Below, piece by piece: positions 19,851 through 27,078 of a stretch of DNA of 64,000 bases. Under the pieces are notes generated by a model, which made no database searches, was not told where the DNA came from, and saw only the letters and a program-made list of their open reading frames with translations. How positions within the stretch are numbered: position 1 is the stretch's first letter; every line of letters begins with the position of its first letter. Source of the DNA: Bryobacteraceae bacterium (GTDB lineage Bacteria > Acidobacteriota > Terriglobia > Bryobacterales > Bryobacteraceae). A program made the translations under genes and the position numbers. Location: positions 930,001 through 994,000 of the forward strand of contig BPGE01000001.1 in assembly GCA_026002875.1 (NCBI GenBank), given 5' to 3'.

Positions 19851-21326
19851 TCAGGTGAGGTCGAGCCATTCGATGCCCGCTTTCGAGAGGGCGTAGCCGA
19901 CTTCCTTGCGCCAGTCGCCGTAACAGGTCATCCAGTGGAAGCCACGCATGGCCGAGGCGAGCCTGTATGAATCGCAGCGGAAGCCGACGTCGATCTGTGC
20001 GCGGCAGATCGGCAGGAAGGGATTGGCGACGATTTCGCCCTCGAATCCGACCCAGCGTTTGAAGCTGAAATCGGGAATGATATTGGTGACTTTCTGGCCG
20101 ATGCGCATGTCGACTTTCGGCGCAGCGCCATAGTCGCTTTCGAAATGCGTGACCATGCGGACGGGCTCCGGATTCCTGCCGTCCATCTTCCGCGGGGCCG
20201 TGCAATGAGCGAGCGTGACAAGGCCGTGGTGCGGCGTGGTGGGATCGTTCAGGAAGACGGGCAGCCCGGAAATCGCCTGAAGCAAAATTCCGGAGGGAAT
20301 GACAACAAAATCGGACTCGCAAAATGCAAGATATCCTTCGTCATTGAGCAGGCTGAGCGGCAGGCAGGCGGTGGTCTCGCCGATGGGCATGATGGTGGAC
20401 ATGCAATGGTTGATCGTGATGGCGGTTGCGCCGGCTTCGCGCATCATGCCGCGGAGGACGTGGGTGAGGAGAAACGCGTTGTCGACGTACTCGCGGCGCG
20501 TTTCGAGCTTGACGCCTTTTCTGCCGAGATAGTCTCCGGCCTCGAGCGCCGCCTGTTTGACGAGCCTGTCGTCTTTTCGCGCGGCCTGCAGACGGCGGCC
20601 GAGTTCGTCATAGGAGACATCGACGAGATCGAGGCCGAAGCGCTCGCGCGCGAGTTGCGGCGCCCTGCGGCCTCCGGCGCCCCAGCCGGAGGCGCCGCCA
20701 AGGCACAGAACCCGGCGGCCCTGCGTATGCTTCAGGCCGCCCAGCGCGCGGAGGCGCCAGGCGACGTCAGCCGTTTCATCGACCACCACGTCCATCGCAT
20801 CCGCCCCGGGCTGACCCCAGTCGTCGTCGGTCTTGCGGAGGAATCGCGGGTGGACGATCTCGTACCACTCGTAGACAGGCCCCGAGCGGTGACGGACAAA
20901 GATGACCGTGGGCGTCTCGGGCTTCGCGACGCTCTCCAGCAGCCGCACGCTGCCAGAAGCCGGATACATCAGCAGCGTGTCGTATTCGCCGGCGGCCACG
21001 GTCTTGCCTTCCTCCACGGAGCGGATTTCGCGCAGCGGAAGGAACTCGATTGGGTACGCGGCCGCGCGGGCGATGGACTCGAGCCCGCGGGCGATGCGTG
21101 CCCGCTCCTCGGCGACTTCTCTTTCTGTAAACAGGCCGCCCCAGGGCCGCCAGCTTGTCTGCGGGCGGGGCTGGAAAATCTGGTAGATGAGCACAGGCTG
21201 GACGCGCAGCGTGCGGCGCGCGCCCGGCTCGAGAGGGTGGCCGCCGGAAGGCGCTGCCACAAGGGGAAGGGCGGCGCCGGTTTTCAGCAGCGTGCGCCGG
21301 CTCATGGCGGACATGCAGCAGGGCAT
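19851..21326 (-). CDS. Tat-exported sugar-isomerase-like protein (FucI/AraA fold)
   Basis: 491 residues. A twin-arginine signal (MSRRTLLKTGAALPLVAAP) directs a folded protein to the periplasm. The rest resembles the L-fucose/L-arabinose isomerase superfamily, most clearly in the C-terminal half. There ATAITINHCMSTIMPIGETT, PLSLLNDEGYLAFCESDFVV and NDPTTPHHGLVTLAHCTAPR correspond to the isomerase active-site region with its conserved acidic and His residues. The export signal is unusual for such enzymes, which are cytoplasmic. It could be an exported epimerase/isomerase or a sugar-binding relative. The start at MSRRTL (near 21305) is likelier than the ATG at 21326, since it places the Arg pair at the usual position. 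No obvious operon partner. Confidence 0.65.
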   Translation of the reverse strand: MPCCMSAMSRRTLLKTGAALPLVAAPSGGHPLEPGARRTLRVQPVLIYQIFQPRPQTSWRPWGGLFTEREVAEERARIARGLESIARAAAYPIEFLPLREIRSVEEGKTVAAGEYDTLLMYPASGSVRLLESVAKPETPTVIFVRHRSGPVYEWYEIVHPRFLRKTDDDWGQPGADAMDVVVDETADVAWRLRALGGLKHTQGRRVLCLGGASGWGAGGRRAPQLARERFGLDLVDVSYDELGRRLQAARKDDRLVKQAALEAGDYLGRKGVKLETRREYVDNAFLLTHVLRGMMREAGATAITINHCMSTIMPIGETTACLPLSLLNDEGYLAFCESDFVVIPSGILLQAISGLPVFLNDPTTPHHGLVTLAHCTAPRKMDGRNPEPVRMVTHFESDYGAAPKVDMRIGQKVTNIIPDFSFKRWVGFEGEIVANPFLPICRAQIDVGFRCDSYRLASAMRGFHWMTCYGDWRKEVGYALSKAGIEWLDLT

Positions 21327-21401: not shown

Positions 21402-24400
21402 TCAGCCGCCGATCGTGCGTTCGAGTTCCGCCACCGCGAGACGCAGGCCCGCGCGGGCCTCTTCCGCCAGGGCCTCGGCTTCCGCGGCGGCCGCCTGAGC
21501 TTCAGCGAGTTTCACAGGCGGGGCGACGCCGGTTTCGACGGCATCCGAAGTAATGCGGAGAGCTTCGCGGCGGGCTTCGAGGGCGCGCTCGGCGACGCGG
21601 ACCAGATCCTGGAAGCGCTCGACCTTGCGGCGGGCCTTCTCGACGTCGATCTGTACGCGATGGCGGACGCGCAGGAGATTCTGTTCAGCCTGCTCCAGCT
21701 GCGCGCGGCGCTCGCCGACGAGAGCGCGCTTCTTGCCGCCGTCGAACAGATCCCACGACAGGCGCGCGCCGACGGCGGCATTGGAAGAGGGCAGGAAGGG
21801 CACGCCGCGCTGCTGCGCGTGCGTGGCGAACAGCGCGATGTCCGGGATGAACTCGGCCTGCGCGGCGCGGACGGCGCGGCGGGCCTTTTCGACTGCGGCT
21901 TCGGCGGCTTTCACTTCGGGGCTGCGCTCGAGGGCGCGTTGCCCCAGCGCCTCGGCCGGCTCGACCGGCGGCGCAGCCCAGAGAGAGGGGACGAGCTCGA
22001 GTTCTGCGTCCGGATCCAGGCCGATCAGGTCGGCGAGTTCCGCCAGCACGTCGGCGCGCTGGTTTTCGAGCTGAAGCAGAGTGTTTTTCGCTTCCAGCAG
22101 GCGGGCGTCGGCCTCGAGAAGTTTGACGTCGAGTGCGGCGCCGGACTCGACGGCGTTGGCGGCGTCGGCGCGGGCGGCTTCAGCGGCCTCGACTTTCCGG
22201 CGCGCGGCAGCGATGCGCTTTTCGAGCAGGAGGGCACCGAGATAGGCTTCCTGAACTTTCAGGGCGATTTCGTTTTCGGCGCGGCGGGTTTCCGCTTCCG
22301 CGATGCGGATGTCCTGCTCGGCGGCGCGCGTGCCGGCGCGGATGCGGATGAGAGGCGTGAGAGGTTGGGCGGCCGTCGTCATGGAAAGGCCGAACGTGTT
22401 GGCGCCCTGCAGCAGGCGCAGGTCGTCCGATGGGACTGGGCTGAGCTGCGGCAGCACGCCGAGAAAGCCCCGCGGGATGGCGACGTTCTGCAACTGGCTG
22501 TTGTAGAGGAGGCTCGATTCATTGGAAAGGCGCGGGAAGGCGTTGGCGCGGATGGCGTCGCGTTTGCGGGCCGATTCGCGCTCCTTCAGACGCTGGATTT
22601 TCAGGATCGGGTTCTGCTGGCGGGCCATGGCGAGGGCCTCGTCGAGCGTGATGCGGCGCGGTTCGGCGCGGAGACCCGGCTGGAACAAAAGTAGCAGCAG
22701 GACGGGCGCCAGGGTGGCCGGGCGCCAGCGGGCGGCGCGGCGCTTGGCCACGACGTAAAGCACAGGCACGACGACGAGCGTGAAGAACATGGAGCAGATG
22801 AGCCCGACGGCGATGGCGCTGGCCAGCGGGGACCACAGGCTGGACCCGCTGAGGATCATGGGCAGCACGCCCACGGCCGCCGCAGCAGTGGTCAGGAAAA
22901 TCGGCCGCAGGCGGCGTTCGCCGGCCTCAAGAGCGGCCGTTTCCAGCGGAGCGCCCGCGCGCTGTCGTTCATGGATGTAATCGACGAGGATGATCGCGTT
23001 GCGCACAACCACGCCGGAAAGGCTGATGACGCCCATAAACGCCGTAAAGCTGAACGGATTTCCCGTCAGAATCAGCCCGAAGACCGCCCCTGGCAGGGCC
23101 AGTGGAATGGACATCATCACGACCAGCGTGTCGACGGGCGAGCGGAACTGGAAGAGCAGGATCAGGAAAATCAGCAGAATGCTCAGGGCCAGCACGACGT
23201 GCATTTCTCCGAATGTTTCTTTCTGCCCCTCGATTTCTCCGCCATATTCGATGCGGTATCCGGGCGGAAGCGGGATGGCGGCGAGCTGTTGCTGCGCCGA
23301 TTTCAGGATTTGCGAGGGCAGGTGCGCCTCGTCGGGGATGGCCATGACGGTGAGCGTGCGCAGGCCGTTGCGGCGGACGATGCGGCTGGGGCGCCACTCG
23401 GGCTCGACGCTGGCGACGCTGCGAAGGGGAACGCGCGCGCCCGTCAGCGCGCTGACGACGTAAGCGTCTCCGACATCGTCGAAGGTGTTTCGGTACTGCT
23501 CCTCGAGGCGCAGTACGACGGGGATGTCGCGGTCGCCCTCCCAGAACGTGGTGACAGGCAGACCGCTGAAACCGCCCGCCATCTGGAGAGCGAGCATGGA
23601 ATTGCTGAAACCCAGGCGGTTGGCGACCTCTTCGTTCACGCGCAGGGAGAGCTCCGGCGCATCTTCGTGGAAGTCGTCGAAGACATATTCGGCGCCCGCC
23701 GTGCGGCGCAGGATCGCCTCAGCCTGATCGCCGATTTCGCGCAGGCGGCGGAGGTCGTCTTCGCCATCCAGCGTGGAGACAATGCGCACTTCGACCGGCG
23801 CCTTCATGACCGTGCCCTGTTCGAGCTCGCGCACGATGGCAAGCGCCTCCGGCGCGACGGCCTGCAGCTCGCGGCGCAGGCGGAACACAAGCGGAGGCGT
23901 ATCTTCCGCGCTCCGGGTGTTGACCACGATCTGGGCATAATTTCGGGCGGGGAATTCTGGGTCGACGTTGTAATAGAAGCGCGGAGCGGAGTCGCCGACA
24001 AAAGACGCGAAACTCGTGACGAGCGGCTCCTTGCGGAGATGCTGTTCGATGCGGCGAACGGCGGCGTCGGTCTTTTCGAGGCGCGTCCCTTCAGGAAGCC
24101 AGAGATGGATGACGAACTGGTTGCGCTCGGCGGTGGGGAAGAAGCGCTCGGGCACGACAGTGCGCAGGAGCACGATTCCCAGAAGGAAGACGGCGGCGCC
24201 GCCGGCGAGGGTGAGGGCCTTGTTGCGCATGGCGGCGTGGATGACGCGGTTGTAGCTGGACTGCATGAAGTCGATGGCGTTGAAGCGCTTCCTGCGCGGT
24301 TCGGCCTCGGGCGGATGGAGTCCGCGGCGGATGAAGAACCGGCAGAGCCACGGCGTGACCAGCATGGCCACGGCGTAGGAGCAGGAGAGAGCGACGGCGA

Positions 24401-25802
24401 CGGCGACCGGCAGCGCCTGGATGAATTCGCCCACCGCTCCGCTGATGATGAGCATCGGCAGGAACGCGGCGATGATGGTGAGCGTGGCGGTGAGCACGGG
24501 CAGCCAGAGTTCAGTGGCGCAGCGCCATGCGGCTTCCATCCGGGGGGTGCCGCGGTCGAGGTGCTCGACGTAGTTGTCGGCGATGACGATGGCGTCGTCG
24601 ACCACCATGCCGAGCACGACGATCAGAGCGGAAATGGAAACCTGGTGCAGTTCGACGCCGATCGCGTGCAGCAGGGCGAACGTGGCGGCGACGGTGACGG
24701 GAATGGCAAGGCTGGCGATGAGCGCCACGCGCAGGGGCAGCAGGATGATGGTGACGAGGATGACGGCGCTGATGGCGATGCCGAACTCGCGGATGAAGTG
24801 CGTGATGCGGCGCTCGACGACGGCGGGCTGATCGGCGAGGATGTCGATGCGGAGGTCGGGAGGCAGCGTGGCGCGCACCTCGGCGAGCTTTTCACGCAGG
24901 GCGCGGCCGAACTCGACGATGTTGTAGCCCTCCTGCATTTCGACGCTGACCAGGACGGCGGGCTCGCCGTTGAAACGGCACAGCGAGCGGGGCTCGCCTT
25001 CGACGCGCTCGACGCGGGCCAGATCGCCGAGATAGACGGGCTGGCCGGTTGGCGAGACGTCGATCATGACGCGCCGGATCTCGTCCACGTCCTGGAAAAG
25101 GCCGGACGCGCGCATGGGCTGCGCCGCCGCGCCGGTCTTCAGCTCGCCGCCGTACTGGACCACGTTGCGGCCGCGGAGGGCCTGGATCACCTTCATCGGC
25201 GAGAGCGCATACTGGGACACGCGCTCCATGGACGAGGTGATGCGGATCTCTTCCTTCTGCTCGCCGATGCGCTTCAGCTTGGCCACGGCGCGCAGGGTGC
25301 GGAATTCGTCTTCGAGCCGTTCGGCGTACTCTTTCAGATCCGTGTAGCTGTAACGGCTGCCGTGCACGGCCACCAGCAGCGCGACCGTGTCGCCGAAATC
25401 GTCGCGCACAACAGGGCCCTGCACGCCCTCCGGCAGTTCCGTGAGCTTGAGCTCGATCAACGCATGGCGGAGCTTCGACCAGAAGACGTCGGGCTGTTTG
25501 ACATGGTCTTCGAGTTCGACATGGATGACGCAGAGGTCGCTGCGGCTGGTGGACCAGGTCTTCGCCTTGCGGACTTCCTCGAAACGGAAGAGCCGGTCTT
25601 CGATCTTGCGCGTGACCTGCTTTTCGACCTGCTCGGCGGTGGCGCCCGGGTACATGGCGATGACGAGGCCTGTGCGGATGGTGATCTTCGGGTCTTCGCG
25701 CCGCGGCATGGTGAGCAGCGACGTGATGCCGGTGGCGAGGACGGCGGCCGTGAGAAGCAGCGTGACCTGCGGGTACCGGAGGGCGGACTTGACGGGGTTC
25801 AT
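21402..25802 (-). CDS. RND efflux permease fused to a TolC-family outer-membrane factor
   Basis: A single 1466-residue frame with two proteins' worth of domains. Residues 1-1020 are a complete RND permease: 12 membrane helices in two halves, two large periplasmic loops, and TM4 VVLGMVVDDAIVIADNYVEH with the paired Asp of the proton relay. Residues 1029-1046 (ATLAPVLLLLLFQPGLRA) look like a signal-peptide hydrophobic core with a cleavage site at LRA|EP. Residues 1047-1466 are a full TolC-type factor (ITLDEALAMARQQNPILKI, a second OEP repeat near 1270, ending AVAELERTIGG). Usually these are separate genes. Cleavage by signal peptidase after residue 1046 could release the outer-membrane part. 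No frameshift is visible and codon use is uniform. The start ATG overlaps the adaptor's stop by 4 bp. Confidence 0.9.
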   Translation of the reverse strand: MNPVKSALRYPQVTLLLTAAVLATGITSLLTMPRREDPKITIRTGLVIAMYPGATAEQVEKQVTRKIEDRLFRFEEVRKAKTWSTSRSDLCVIHVELEDHVKQPDVFWSKLRHALIELKLTELPEGVQGPVVRDDFGDTVALLVAVHGSRYSYTDLKEYAERLEDEFRTLRAVAKLKRIGEQKEEIRITSSMERVSQYALSPMKVIQALRGRNVVQYGGELKTGAAAQPMRASGLFQDVDEIRRVMIDVSPTGQPVYLGDLARVERVEGEPRSLCRFNGEPAVLVSVEMQEGYNIVEFGRALREKLAEVRATLPPDLRIDILADQPAVVERRITHFIREFGIAISAVILVTIILLPLRVALIASLAIPVTVAATFALLHAIGVELHQVSISALIVVLGMVVDDAIVIADNYVEHLDRGTPRMEAAWRCATELWLPVLTATLTIIAAFLPMLIISGAVGEFIQALPVAVAVALSCSYAVAMLVTPWLCRFFIRRGLHPPEAEPRRKRFNAIDFMQSSYNRVIHAAMRNKALTLAGGAAVFLLGIVLLRTVVPERFFPTAERNQFVIHLWLPEGTRLEKTDAAVRRIEQHLRKEPLVTSFASFVGDSAPRFYYNVDPEFPARNYAQIVVNTRSAEDTPPLVFRLRRELQAVAPEALAIVRELEQGTVMKAPVEVRIVSTLDGEDDLRRLREIGDQAEAILRRTAGAEYVFDDFHEDAPELSLRVNEEVANRLGFSNSMLALQMAGGFSGLPVTTFWEGDRDIPVVLRLEEQYRNTFDDVGDAYVVSALTGARVPLRSVASVEPEWRPSRIVRRNGLRTLTVMAIPDEAHLPSQILKSAQQQLAAIPLPPGYRIEYGGEIEGQKETFGEMHVVLALSILLIFLILLFQFRSPVDTLVVMMSIPLALPGAVFGLILTGNPFSFTAFMGVISLSGVVVRNAIILVDYIHERQRAGAPLETAALEAGERRLRPIFLTTAAAAVGVLPMILSGSSLWSPLASAIAVGLICSMFFTLVVVPVLYVVAKRRAARWRPATLAPVLLLLLFQPGLRAEPRRITLDEALAMARQQNPILKIQRLKERESARKRDAIRANAFPRLSNESSLLYNSQLQNVAIPRGFLGVLPQLSPVPSDDLRLLQGANTFGLSMTTAAQPLTPLIRIRAGTRAAEQDIRIAEAETRRAENEIALKVQEAYLGALLLEKRIAAARRKVEAAEAARADAANAVESGAALDVKLLEADARLLEAKNTLLQLENQRADVLAELADLIGLDPDAELELVPSLWAAPPVEPAEALGQRALERSPEVKAAEAAVEKARRAVRAAQAEFIPDIALFATHAQQRGVPFLPSSNAAVGARLSWDLFDGGKKRALVGERRAQLEQAEQNLLRVRHRVQIDVEKARRKVERFQDLVRVAERALEARREALRITSDAVETGVAPPVKLAEAQAAAAEAEALAEEARAGLRLAVAELERTIGG

Positions 25803-26992
25803 CGCAGCACCTCCGCCTGGACGCGCATGCCGTCTTTGACCTTGTGCTGGCCGCCCACAACGACCAGGTCGCCATCGCCAAGCCCCTCCGCGATCTCGAC
25901 CTCGCGGCCAGCCCCGCGGCCGGTGCGGACGCGCCGCGCATGAACGCGTCCGCTCTGGGGCGAGTAGACGTAGACGTGCGTGGCGCCCTGCGGATCGCGC
26001 CAGACGGCTTCCGCGGGAACGGTGCGCACCGGGACGCGCGAGTCGGTCTCAATCTCGGCTTCGGCGATCATGCCGGCGCGCAGTTCCAGCGCGGGGTTCG
26101 GCGCCAGCAGCCGCACCGGGAAGGTCCGCGACTGCGGCTCCGCAGCGAAGCCGACAAGTTCGACTTTTGCGGGGAATTCGCGCCCGCCGAGAGAAGGAAT
26201 GCGGACGCGCGCGGTCTGCCCGATCCTGACCTTCCCGATTTCCGCTTCAGGCACGCCGGCGCGGACGCGCGCCGGGTGGAGCTGCATCAGCGCCACAACG
26301 GGCATCCCGGCAGCGATCATCTCGCCCGTGTCGGCCAGGCGGCGGGCCACGACGCCAGAAATGGGCGCGCGGAGCTGCGTGTCCTCGACGCGCTTGCGAT
26401 TGAGCCGGGCGTTGGCTTCGGCCTGTCGGGCCTTGGCCTCGGCGGCCTCGCGGTCTTCGCGGCGCGCGCCTTCCAGGGCTTCCTCGTACCGCTGCTTCGC
26501 CACCTGCCAGTGCGTTTCGATTTTCCTGAAATCGTTCGGCGCAAGGCTTTTCCGCTCGAACAGGATCTTCATGCGCCGGTACTCGTCTTCGGCCTGCTCG
26601 TAGGCGGCGCGGGCCTGCTCAAGCTCCTGTCTGCGCGCCCCGGCGCGGGCTTTCTCGGCCATCGCCCGCGCAGCCGCGGCTTCGCCTTCCGCAATCTCTG
26701 CGCCGAGCGAATAGTCGGTGGGGTCGAGTTCCGCCAGCAACTGCCCCTGGCGGACGACCTGCCCCTCCTCGACCAGCACCCGGCGGATGCGCCCAGCCAC
26801 CTGGAAGCCGACTTCGGAGGATTCGTACGCCTCCACGTTACCGCCAACCCGGATCACTTCGGCTCGCTCGAGTTTCGCCGCCTCCCGAACCTGCACGGCG
26901 GCCACCGGCTCCGGCGCCTGTGCGGTCCGCTTTCCGCATGCGGCAAATGAGAGGATCAGAACCGCCACTGCCCAACGACCGGAATTCAGCAT
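25799..26992 (-). CDS. RND efflux periplasmic adaptor (lipoprotein)
   Basis: 397 residues from the ATG at 26992 (MLNSGRWAVAVLILSFAACG), which gives a proper lipoprotein signal with lipobox FAAC. The frame is open further upstream to 27055, but that extension crosses the promoter and operator dyad. The domain order is typical: lipoyl/barrel-sandwich (VGGNVEAYESSEVGFQVAGR), a long Ala/Arg/Glu helical hairpin (about 95-190), barrel and membrane-proximal domains. It couples to the permease-TolC fusion immediately downstream (ATGA overlap), making a two-gene tripartite pump. Substrate unknown. Confidence 0.92.
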   Translation of the reverse strand: MLNSGRWAVAVLILSFAACGKRTAQAPEPVAAVQVREAAKLERAEVIRVGGNVEAYESSEVGFQVAGRIRRVLVEEGQVVRQGQLLAELDPTDYSLGAEIAEGEAAAARAMAEKARAGARRQELEQARAAYEQAEDEYRRMKILFERKSLAPNDFRKIETHWQVAKQRYEEALEGARREDREAAEAKARQAEANARLNRKRVEDTQLRAPISGVVARRLADTGEMIAAGMPVVALMQLHPARVRAGVPEAEIGKVRIGQTARVRIPSLGGREFPAKVELVGFAAEPQSRTFPVRLLAPNPALELRAGMIAEAEIETDSRVPVRTVPAEAVWRDPQGATHVYVYSPQSGRVHARRVRTGRGAGREVEIAEGLGDGDLVVVGGQHKVKDGMRVQAEVLR

Positions 26993-27034: not shown

Positions 27035-27078
27035 TTTGTCACTATACAGTGACAAATACTGTAATCAATCATTTACAG
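27035..27078 (-). promoter_or_regulatory. Promoter covered by two dyads (repressor operator) of the RND operon
   Basis: On the minus strand a -35 TTGATT (27063-27068) and a -10 TATAGT (27041-27046) are 16 bp apart. A perfect dyad with 9-bp arms TTTGTCACT and AGTGACAAA around a 4-bp centre (27035-27056) covers the -10 and spacer. A second dyad, CTGTAA and TTACAG with an 8-bp centre (27059-27078), covers the -35. The arrangement is that of a TetR/AcrR-type or similar repressor site. No regulator gene is adjacent. The leader to the ATG at 26992 would be about 40 nt. Confidence 0.65.

Follow-up and report, generated by a model that had tools for sequence, protein, structure and literature searches.

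A locus in a 64,000-nucleotide stretch of DNA from a Bryobacteraceae bacterium (the window) raised the question of whether one gene could supply both the RND permease and the outer membrane factor (OMF) of a tripartite pump. The open reading frame at 21402..25802 on the minus strand was a single ORF of 1466 codons with an ATG start and no internal stop, as determined from the ORF list and the translation of the window. A sequence-only reading had described this frame as an RND pump (residues 1-1020), a signal-peptide-like segment (1029-1046) and a full OMF (1047-1466), and the ORF, translation and Pfam analyses bore out this description. The permease part (22743..25802, minus strand) matched ACR_tran (PF00873) over residues 5-1019 on profile positions 3-1020 (E 3.7e-187; 624.6 bits versus a cut-off of 28), indicating a full-length RND permease, and its last helix ended at PVLY (residues 1013-1016). 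MexK and 6vej headed the PDB sequence matches, MdtB and AcrB ranking lower, and among the best 60 of 83 matched the best stretches fell in the permease part only. Residues D402 and D403, which we take to be the Asp pair of TM4 known from AcrB, were invariant across the nine fused rows of alignment A1, as was Arg934, which presumably occupies the position of the TM10 Lys of AcrB. Comparison with the NCBIfam RND subfamilies (RND_permease_1/2, 2A0602 and CusA/CzcA) placed the permease below all curated cut-offs (best score, 530.7 versus 1250), the CusA/CzcA model giving 360.6 against a cut-off of 701.45. The OMF part, predicted to be mature from residue 1047 (21405..22664, minus strand), contained two stretches of OEP (PF02321; E 1.3e-52, 178.8 bits, best stretch 1288-1465), and was modelled as a TolC fold with a mean pLDDT of 86.3. 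TolC-family structures matched this model with query-normalised TM scores of 0.69-0.76 among the first 38 matches, the best being TolC, a P. aeruginosa OMF (5azo), ST50 and OprN. Scores for this part were under the NCBIfam cut-offs of type_I_sec_TolC (90.2 versus 225.15) and outer_NodT (60 versus 210.05). Both Pfam domains were present in all 20 fused proteins scanned, including that of the window. A chance origin of the frame was rejected on the basis of its 1466 codons and two full Pfam domains with E values below 1e-50.

The fused frame was present in three of four congeners searched, at 83-91% identity. Uninterrupted fused frames were found within the genus (G001, G002 and G003) and the family (G009, G011, G031, G032 and G034), the G034 frame being followed up to the contig end only. 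In a search of 61 genomes, 8 of 10 other matches at ≥53% identity were fused and the other two were split with ATGA/GTGA overlaps; in 396 genomes of the phylum, with at most two candidates scored per genome (as in one further survey), 8 of 10 other matches at ≥48% were uninterrupted full-length fused frames. Both searches used the whole fusion as the query and hence favour fused relatives. Open-frame length alone does not prove fusion, as a 1557-aa frame in G032 held a permease of 1189 aa, the OMF being encoded by a gene of its own. The objection, anticipated by the earlier reading, that relatives always have separate genes was not upheld: most relatives were fused, with split orthologues (separate RND and OMF genes with 4-base overlaps) in two members of the same family, G030 and G019. 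The use of separate genes by these two, and likewise by Emticicia, Pedobacter, Spirosoma and Chitinophaga, indicated that co-supply from one gene is not essential.

The distribution of such fusions extended well beyond these relatives. The window genome carries a second, distant RND-OMF fusion, and fusions also turned up in other RND clades, in Gemmatirosa and Persicobacter, and in one Bacteroidota clade of the CusA/CzcA type. The protein of Persicobacter psychrovividus (WP_338399011.1; 1467 aa) belongs to the same wider clade as that of the window and has the same fused architecture with a leader. The Bacteroidota proteins (~1440-1520 aa) have the same RND-leader-OMF order, with both Pfam domains in 6/6 scanned, but represent another RND subfamily, scoring over the TIGR00914 cut-off. 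Fusion-length frames accounted for 90 of 98 CusA/CzcA-type Bacteroidota matches at ≥50% identity to a Spirosoma query but for 0 of 34 below 50%; at most four candidates were scored per genome in this survey, and 28 of the 90 fusion-length matches, those with loci, were read at the junction. By hand count, 8 of 21 matches over the CusA/CzcA family cut-off in eight Bacteroidota genomes had fusion-length frames. Fusion therefore prevails in the clade at ≥50% identity to the query and not among the CusA/CzcA-type permeases of Bacteroidota as a whole. A quick RND tree, which carried warnings on long branches and odd composition, required at least 11 changes between the fused and not-fused states, of which well-supported branches enforced 8. 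Rows were scored as not fused when they lacked a fused frame, and only for some of them was a neighbouring OMF gene demonstrated; one gene (G044) was entered twice, the changes were counted without the interrupted frames of G436 and G028, and the L026 entry for G004 was removed because it duplicated L061. The statement that the two pump parts are normally separate genes held for well-studied pumps, but fusion is recurrent.

The junction of the window protein was then considered. A positively charged loop, RRAARWRP (residues 1021-1028; 22719..22742, minus strand), preceded a leader-like segment, ATLAPVLLLLLFQPGLRA (residues 1029-1046; 22665..22718, minus strand), which was followed by EPRRITLDEA. 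An n-region of KRRAARWRP, a core mean of 2.59 and a predicted cut after Ala1046 (LRA/E) gave this segment the features of a signal peptidase I substrate, the Leu at -3 being tolerable but less than optimal. The structure model contained a helix at 1028-1039 and then a low-confidence stretch, with ~9 residues between the leader helix and the OMF fold. A hydrophobic leader was present at all 72 distinct fused junctions read (sets of 40 and 33, with the Persicobacter row common to both) and an AxA-like site at most of them, in agreement with the earlier proposal that the leader of the OMF was kept inside the fusion. Within the set of 40, which includes G436 (its OMF part is interrupted further along) and G034 (which runs off its contig), the mean Kyte-Doolittle value of the 12-residue core was ≥1.97 in every junction and the loop before the leader had at least two K/R residues in 39. 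An AxA-like site followed the leader in 37/40 junctions versus 132/382 of the remaining hydrophobic segments in these permeases, a control that comprised segments of both orientations. A loose AxA pattern was observed in 40/40 (shuffled tails: mean, 33.4; largest, 39) and a strict pattern in 36/40 (mean, 28.3; largest, 36, and so not above every shuffle); this comparison is a weak test on its own because shuffled Ala-rich tails also score high. Ka/Ks values for three congener pairs were 0.045-0.07 for the RND part, 0.14-0.27 for the loop and leader (only 28-30 codons) and 0.10-0.13 for the OMF part. These values, all below 1, indicated purifying selection on both sides of the junction and across it.

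A more specific signature was available in Bacteroidota, in which signal peptidase I usually exposes Gln at +1 (the Q-rule), with a published average of 71% Gln at the sites predicted for that phylum (PMC5837995). The junctions of the Bacteroidota fusions obeyed this rule: a small-x-small motif followed directly by Gln was present at 31 of 33, as against a mean of 10.0 and a maximum of 18 in 2000 shuffles; elsewhere in those permeases, only 8 of 407 hydrophobic segments carried it. In the two exceptions, L235 (...YSQE) and L255 (...ALTQP), Gln also adjoins the leader, with the -3 or -1 residue outside the residue classes used. The contrast between 31/33 junctions and 8/407 controls constitutes independent evidence for a cut internal leader, the strongest obtained, and applies to homologous architectures in a phylum other than that of the window rather than to the window's own protein.

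The best reading of these data, to which we assign a probability of about 0.85, is that the gene encodes a pump polyprotein that signal peptidase I would divide into RND and OMF in equal amounts. The RND part would insert with 12 helices and its C terminus in the cytoplasm; the leader retained from the former OMF gene would then enter the translocon as a thirteenth helix in an N-in/C-out orientation and carry the OMF part to the periplasm. Following a cut after Ala1046, the OMF would be handed on to the outer membrane and its trimers would join those of the RND part again via the separately encoded adaptor. Such a fusion may provide an equal supply of RND and OMF for a 3:6:3 pump, with both made in one place.

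Two alternatives to cleavage were weighed. The leader could remain uncut as a thirteenth transmembrane helix, with the OMF part functioning in a form still attached to the permease. In its favour, the hydrophobicity of the segment would suffice for a membrane helix and cleavage is so far a prediction. The ~9 residues available argue against a tethered OMF, as such a link is too short to bridge the distance from one part to the other: in the reconstituted pumps (PMC4754349), RND and OMF make no direct contact and ~6 nm separates the periplasmic part of MexB (7 nm) from OprM. An uncut leader would also leave the AxA-like sites, and the Gln at +1 of 31/33 Bacteroidota junctions, unexplained, and we consider it unlikely. 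It is less probable still that the OMF arises also or mainly from an internal translation start, the fusion being only apparent. Most of the 40 junctions had one or more in-frame GTG, ATG or TTG codons close to the leader, and a Shine-Dalgarno-like stretch preceded such a codon in two (L063 and L065). However, the scanned stretch was free of in-frame start codons in 9/40 junctions, including that of the second fusion of the window genome, 38/40 had no Shine-Dalgarno-like match, and the sole candidate in the window, a GTG at residue 1018, also lacked one. The scan was made with a simple pattern that single cases may escape, and its results led to rejection of an internal start as a general explanation. 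Cleavage of the polyprotein by signal peptidase, as the sequence-only reading had suggested, thus gained support from the leaders, the Gln signature and the shortness of the link.

An error of assembly or sequencing, with loss of a stop and a start codon, was judged extremely improbable; nothing spoke for it beyond the existence of split orthologues with 4-base overlaps in G030 and G019. The window lies within a single-contig 4.86-Mb assembly, G002 is also a single contig, and these two genomes of the genus share the frame; the Persicobacter fusion is one RefSeq protein. Independently assembled genomes contained the same frame, with identities of 83-91%, 53-64% and 48-57%. An indel or missing-stop artefact was therefore excluded by the single-contig assembly, the uninterrupted frame in relatives and the Ka/Ks values below 1, and the loss of bases near the junction, against which the earlier reading had cautioned, was not borne out.

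A cleaved polyprotein has a precedent in FbcH, the cytochrome b/c1 polyprotein of Bradyrhizobium, in which two envelope proteins of one complex are made as one precursor and the signal sequence of the second is kept inside and cut. Both FbcH products remain in the inner membrane, unlike those of the window fusion, one of which must reach the outer membrane. Polyproteins are seldom used by bacteria; if the proposed cleavage is correct, a single precursor feeds two different membranes. Tripartite RND pumps with MexK-, MdtB- or AcrB-type permeases and OprM/TolC-type factors likewise comprise a full permease, a full OMF and an adaptor gene in the operon, but their permease and OMF are separate genes whereas here the two form one frame. 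Engineered RND-MFP fusions, which serve pump structure work (PMC4754349), also join pump parts covalently but are man-made, combine RND with the adaptor and are meant to stay whole. A natural RND-OMF fusion was described neither in the papers found by a literature search confined to open-licence PMC papers nor in the accessible portions of PMC8277102 and PMC4827864. It is probable that RND-OMF polyproteins are a widespread and apparently undescribed build of tripartite pumps, which arose by repeated fusion in several RND subfamilies with the OMF leader kept, so that cleavage at an internal signal by signal peptidase I in a 13-helix precursor would be an obligatory step that couples the motor with its exit duct at a 1:1 ratio and on the spot. 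With this design it could be tested cleanly whether the parts of a pump must be equal in amount or made in the same place, and whether signal peptidase I can act on a signal located behind twelve transmembrane helices. The Persicobacter protein is named only "efflux RND transporter permease subunit" in RefSeq and its OMF half, absent from the annotation, has therefore been missed; pumps seemingly without an outer membrane channel may carry an OMF inside the permease gene.

The adaptor gene lies directly upstream. Its ORF was listed up to 27055 with a TTG, but the likely start is the ATG at 26992, giving a gene at 25799..26992 on the minus strand whose stop overlaps the ATG of the fusion by 4 bases (ATGA). 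A TIGR01730 score of 217.8 versus a cut-off of 94.9 indicated an RND adaptor (MFP), and the product contains a lipobox-like FAAC. Ahead of the likely start, a pattern search detected an operator-like inverted repeat, TTTGTCACTATACAGTGACAAA, with perfect 9-base arms (27035..27056); this was the one match in the window, with 0 expected. The repeat was not found in L049 by this pattern, but a similar one was present in L048 and a weaker one in L050.

The RND-OMF fusion gene (21402-25802, reverse strand) was found to be one ATG-started frame of 1,466 codons. Pfam matches placed a whole RND permease at residues 5-1019 and two outer-membrane efflux repeats in the fusion, with the top-scoring repeat at 1288-1465. 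Between these lay a short charged loop, AKRRAARWRP, the leader segment ATLAPVLLLLLFQPGLRA and then EPRRITLDEA, resembling the beginning of a mature outer-membrane factor (OMF). The frame, the domains and the intervening leader bore out the sequence-only reading of a permease and a TolC-type factor joined through an internal signal peptide. The RND part scored below the cut-offs of all NCBIfam models listed. Residue 934, which we take to be the position of the essential TM10 lysine in AcrB, was an arginine (VVRNAI) that was invariant across nine aligned fusions. The structure of residues 1017-1466 was modelled using 12 OMFs taken from named contigs. The model (mean pLDDT, 86.3) predicted, in this order, a leader helix at 1028-1039, a loose segment at approximately 1040-1048 and a TolC fold. 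Foldseek matches of this model included TolC, OprN, OprM and OprJ among others, and the first 38 matches had query-normalised TM scores of 0.69 to 0.76. The preceding adaptor gene (25799-26992, reverse strand) ended in a four-base overlap, ATGA, with the start of the fusion, and its product had a profile score above the RND adaptor cut-off and a lipobox-like stretch at the N terminus, counting from the likely start at 26992.

The fusion is real and conserved. A survey of 60 relatives (61 genomes in all) yielded 10 matches at ≥53% identity, of which 8 were fused, both within the genus (G001, G002 and G003; 83 to 91% identity) and beyond it (G009, G011, G031, G032 and G034; 53 to 64%). The other two (G030 and G019) had the RND and OMF parts in separate genes with four-base overlaps (GTGA and ATGA), while the fourth congener, G004, had no orthologue at this threshold. 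A wider survey, of 396 genomes sampled from the phylum, added 10 matches at ≥48% identity; 8 were fused, full-length, uninterrupted frames and one fused frame (G351) was ended by a contig edge. The tenth, in the single-contig genome G436 (L188), was fused and broken within the OMF part, through either gene decay or sequencing error. As the window genome is itself assembled as one contig and relatives carry uninterrupted fused frames, an assembly error at the junction can be dismissed, and relatives do not always have separate genes. Ka/Ks values in three congener pairs were 0.045 to 0.07 for the RND part, 0.10 to 0.13 for the OMF and 0.14 to 0.27 for the loop and leader (28 to 30 codons only), indicating that all three are maintained as coding sequence. 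The leader was the loosest of the three parts; signal peptides are usually the loosest-conserved part.

Junctions were then compared in 40 fused proteins, with the CusA/CzcA type left out. A hydrophobic 12-mer (mean Kyte-Doolittle value, 1.97 to 3.23) was present in all 40, and the preceding loop had at least two K/R residues in 39. An AxA-like site followed the 12-mer at 37 of 40 junctions, versus 132 of 382 other hydrophobic segments of the same permeases. In a weaker control with shuffled tails, a loose AxA pattern was observed 40 times (shuffled mean, 33.4; largest, 39) and a strict pattern 36 times (shuffled mean, 28.3; largest, 36). None of 72 distinct junctions inspected was a leaderless permease-OMF join; all had a leader, in agreement with the proposal that the leader of the former downstream gene was kept.

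A search for other in-frame fusions was successful, and the architecture is not confined to the window gene. The same genome encodes a second RND-OMF fusion of 1,593 aa (L047 1941-6722; genome C1:1194940-1199721, reverse strand), which belongs to another RND clade, shares 29% identity with the window fusion, and has its own adaptor gene ahead and a leader at the junction. Frames of 1,567 to 1,627 aa for this type occurred in 13 of 61 genomes; seven of those junctions, plus six from another search, were inspected. Window-type fusions were detected on plasmids of Gemmatirosa (two) and Persicobacter (one; 1,467 aa, publicly annotated as a permease only), and more distant clades also had fused frames (L194-L199). 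Both Pfam domains were present in 20 of 20 fused proteins scanned. In Emticicia, Pedobacter, Spirosoma and Chitinophaga the window-type pump was unfused, with separate genes tightly packed or overlapping. A quick tree built from 94 RND domains required no fewer than 11 changes between the fused and unfused states, and well-supported branches force at least 8 of these changes; gains and losses are indistinguishable in this count.

Fusions of the CusA/CzcA type were counted by hand in 17 named genomes, eight of them Bacteroidota. Frames of 1,455 to 1,485 aa made up 8 of 21 Bacteroidota matches above the CusA/CzcA cut-off, and Nitrosomonas had one fusion-length match (1,471 aa); all five fusion-length proteins inspected had a leader and an OMF. 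With a Spirosoma permease as the query against 198 genomes of its phylum, 90 of 98 matches at ≥50% identity had frames of 1,437 to 1,523 aa, while none of 34 matches below 50% was of fusion length. The Bacteroidota CusA/CzcA-type clade was mostly of fusion length (e.g., L227, L229, L230 and L236), and its inspected junctions conformed to the signal peptidase I Gln rule. According to PMC5837995, cleavage by signal peptidase I in Bacteroidota leaves glutamine at the N terminus of ∼71% of predicted substrates. We assembled 33 Bacteroidota junctions (five from the 17-genome survey, that of Persicobacter and 27 of 89 further fusion-length matches from the 198-genome survey). In 31 of them, Gln came immediately after a small-x-small site (shuffled mean, 10.0; largest, 18 in 2,000), an arrangement present in just 8 of 407 other hydrophobic segments of the same permeases. 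This signature, seen in homologous architectures rather than in the window's protein, is the strongest evidence for junction cleavage of RND-OMF precursors.

Established RND topology puts the C terminus of the permease part in the cytoplasm, and hence the leader would be positioned as a normal N-in signal. Most likely, the leader would act as a thirteenth helix carrying the OMF into the periplasm, where signal peptidase I would release it from the precursor. An uncut leader, with the OMF permanently tethered to the permease, is unlikely, since MexB and OprM are described in passages of PMC4754349 as not being in direct contact (7-nm periplasmic part; gap of ∼6 nm), whereas the model predicts only about nine residues between the leader helix and the OMF fold. 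Nor would an uncut helix give a reason for Gln after small-x-small at the Bacteroidota junctions. Production of the OMF from an internal translation start within the fused frame is not general, as 9 of 40 junctions lacked an in-frame start codon in the scanned stretch and just 2 of 40 had a Shine-Dalgarno-like match. Release from a polyprotein would provide equal amounts of RND and OMF with the adaptor made separately, which fits the 3:6:3 pump make-up given in the same passages (PMC4754349) and may be of benefit.

The individual pump parts are ordinary, and the fused architecture already exists among publicly annotated proteins, though it is not identified there as a fusion. Searches of open-licence papers on the architecture or on internal-signal polyproteins, and passages of reviews, yielded no description of a natural RND-OMF fusion. 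The nearest known precedent is the FbcH cytochrome b/c1 precursor; the apparently new feature here is that two components of a tripartite RND pump would come from one polyprotein.

The region 19851-21326, which immediately follows the fusion gene and has the same orientation, encodes a protein of 491 aa whose N terminus is twin-arginine-like (SRRTLLKTG). This protein matched no Pfam or NCBIfam model at the thresholds applied. Just upstream of the likely adaptor start, an inverted repeat with perfect 9-base arms, TTTGTCACTATACAGTGACAAA (27035-27056), was the only match to its pattern within the window. No counterpart was found by pattern at the corresponding place in locus L049; L048 had a close variant and L050 a weaker one at the same place. 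The repeat probably serves as operator for the pump operon.
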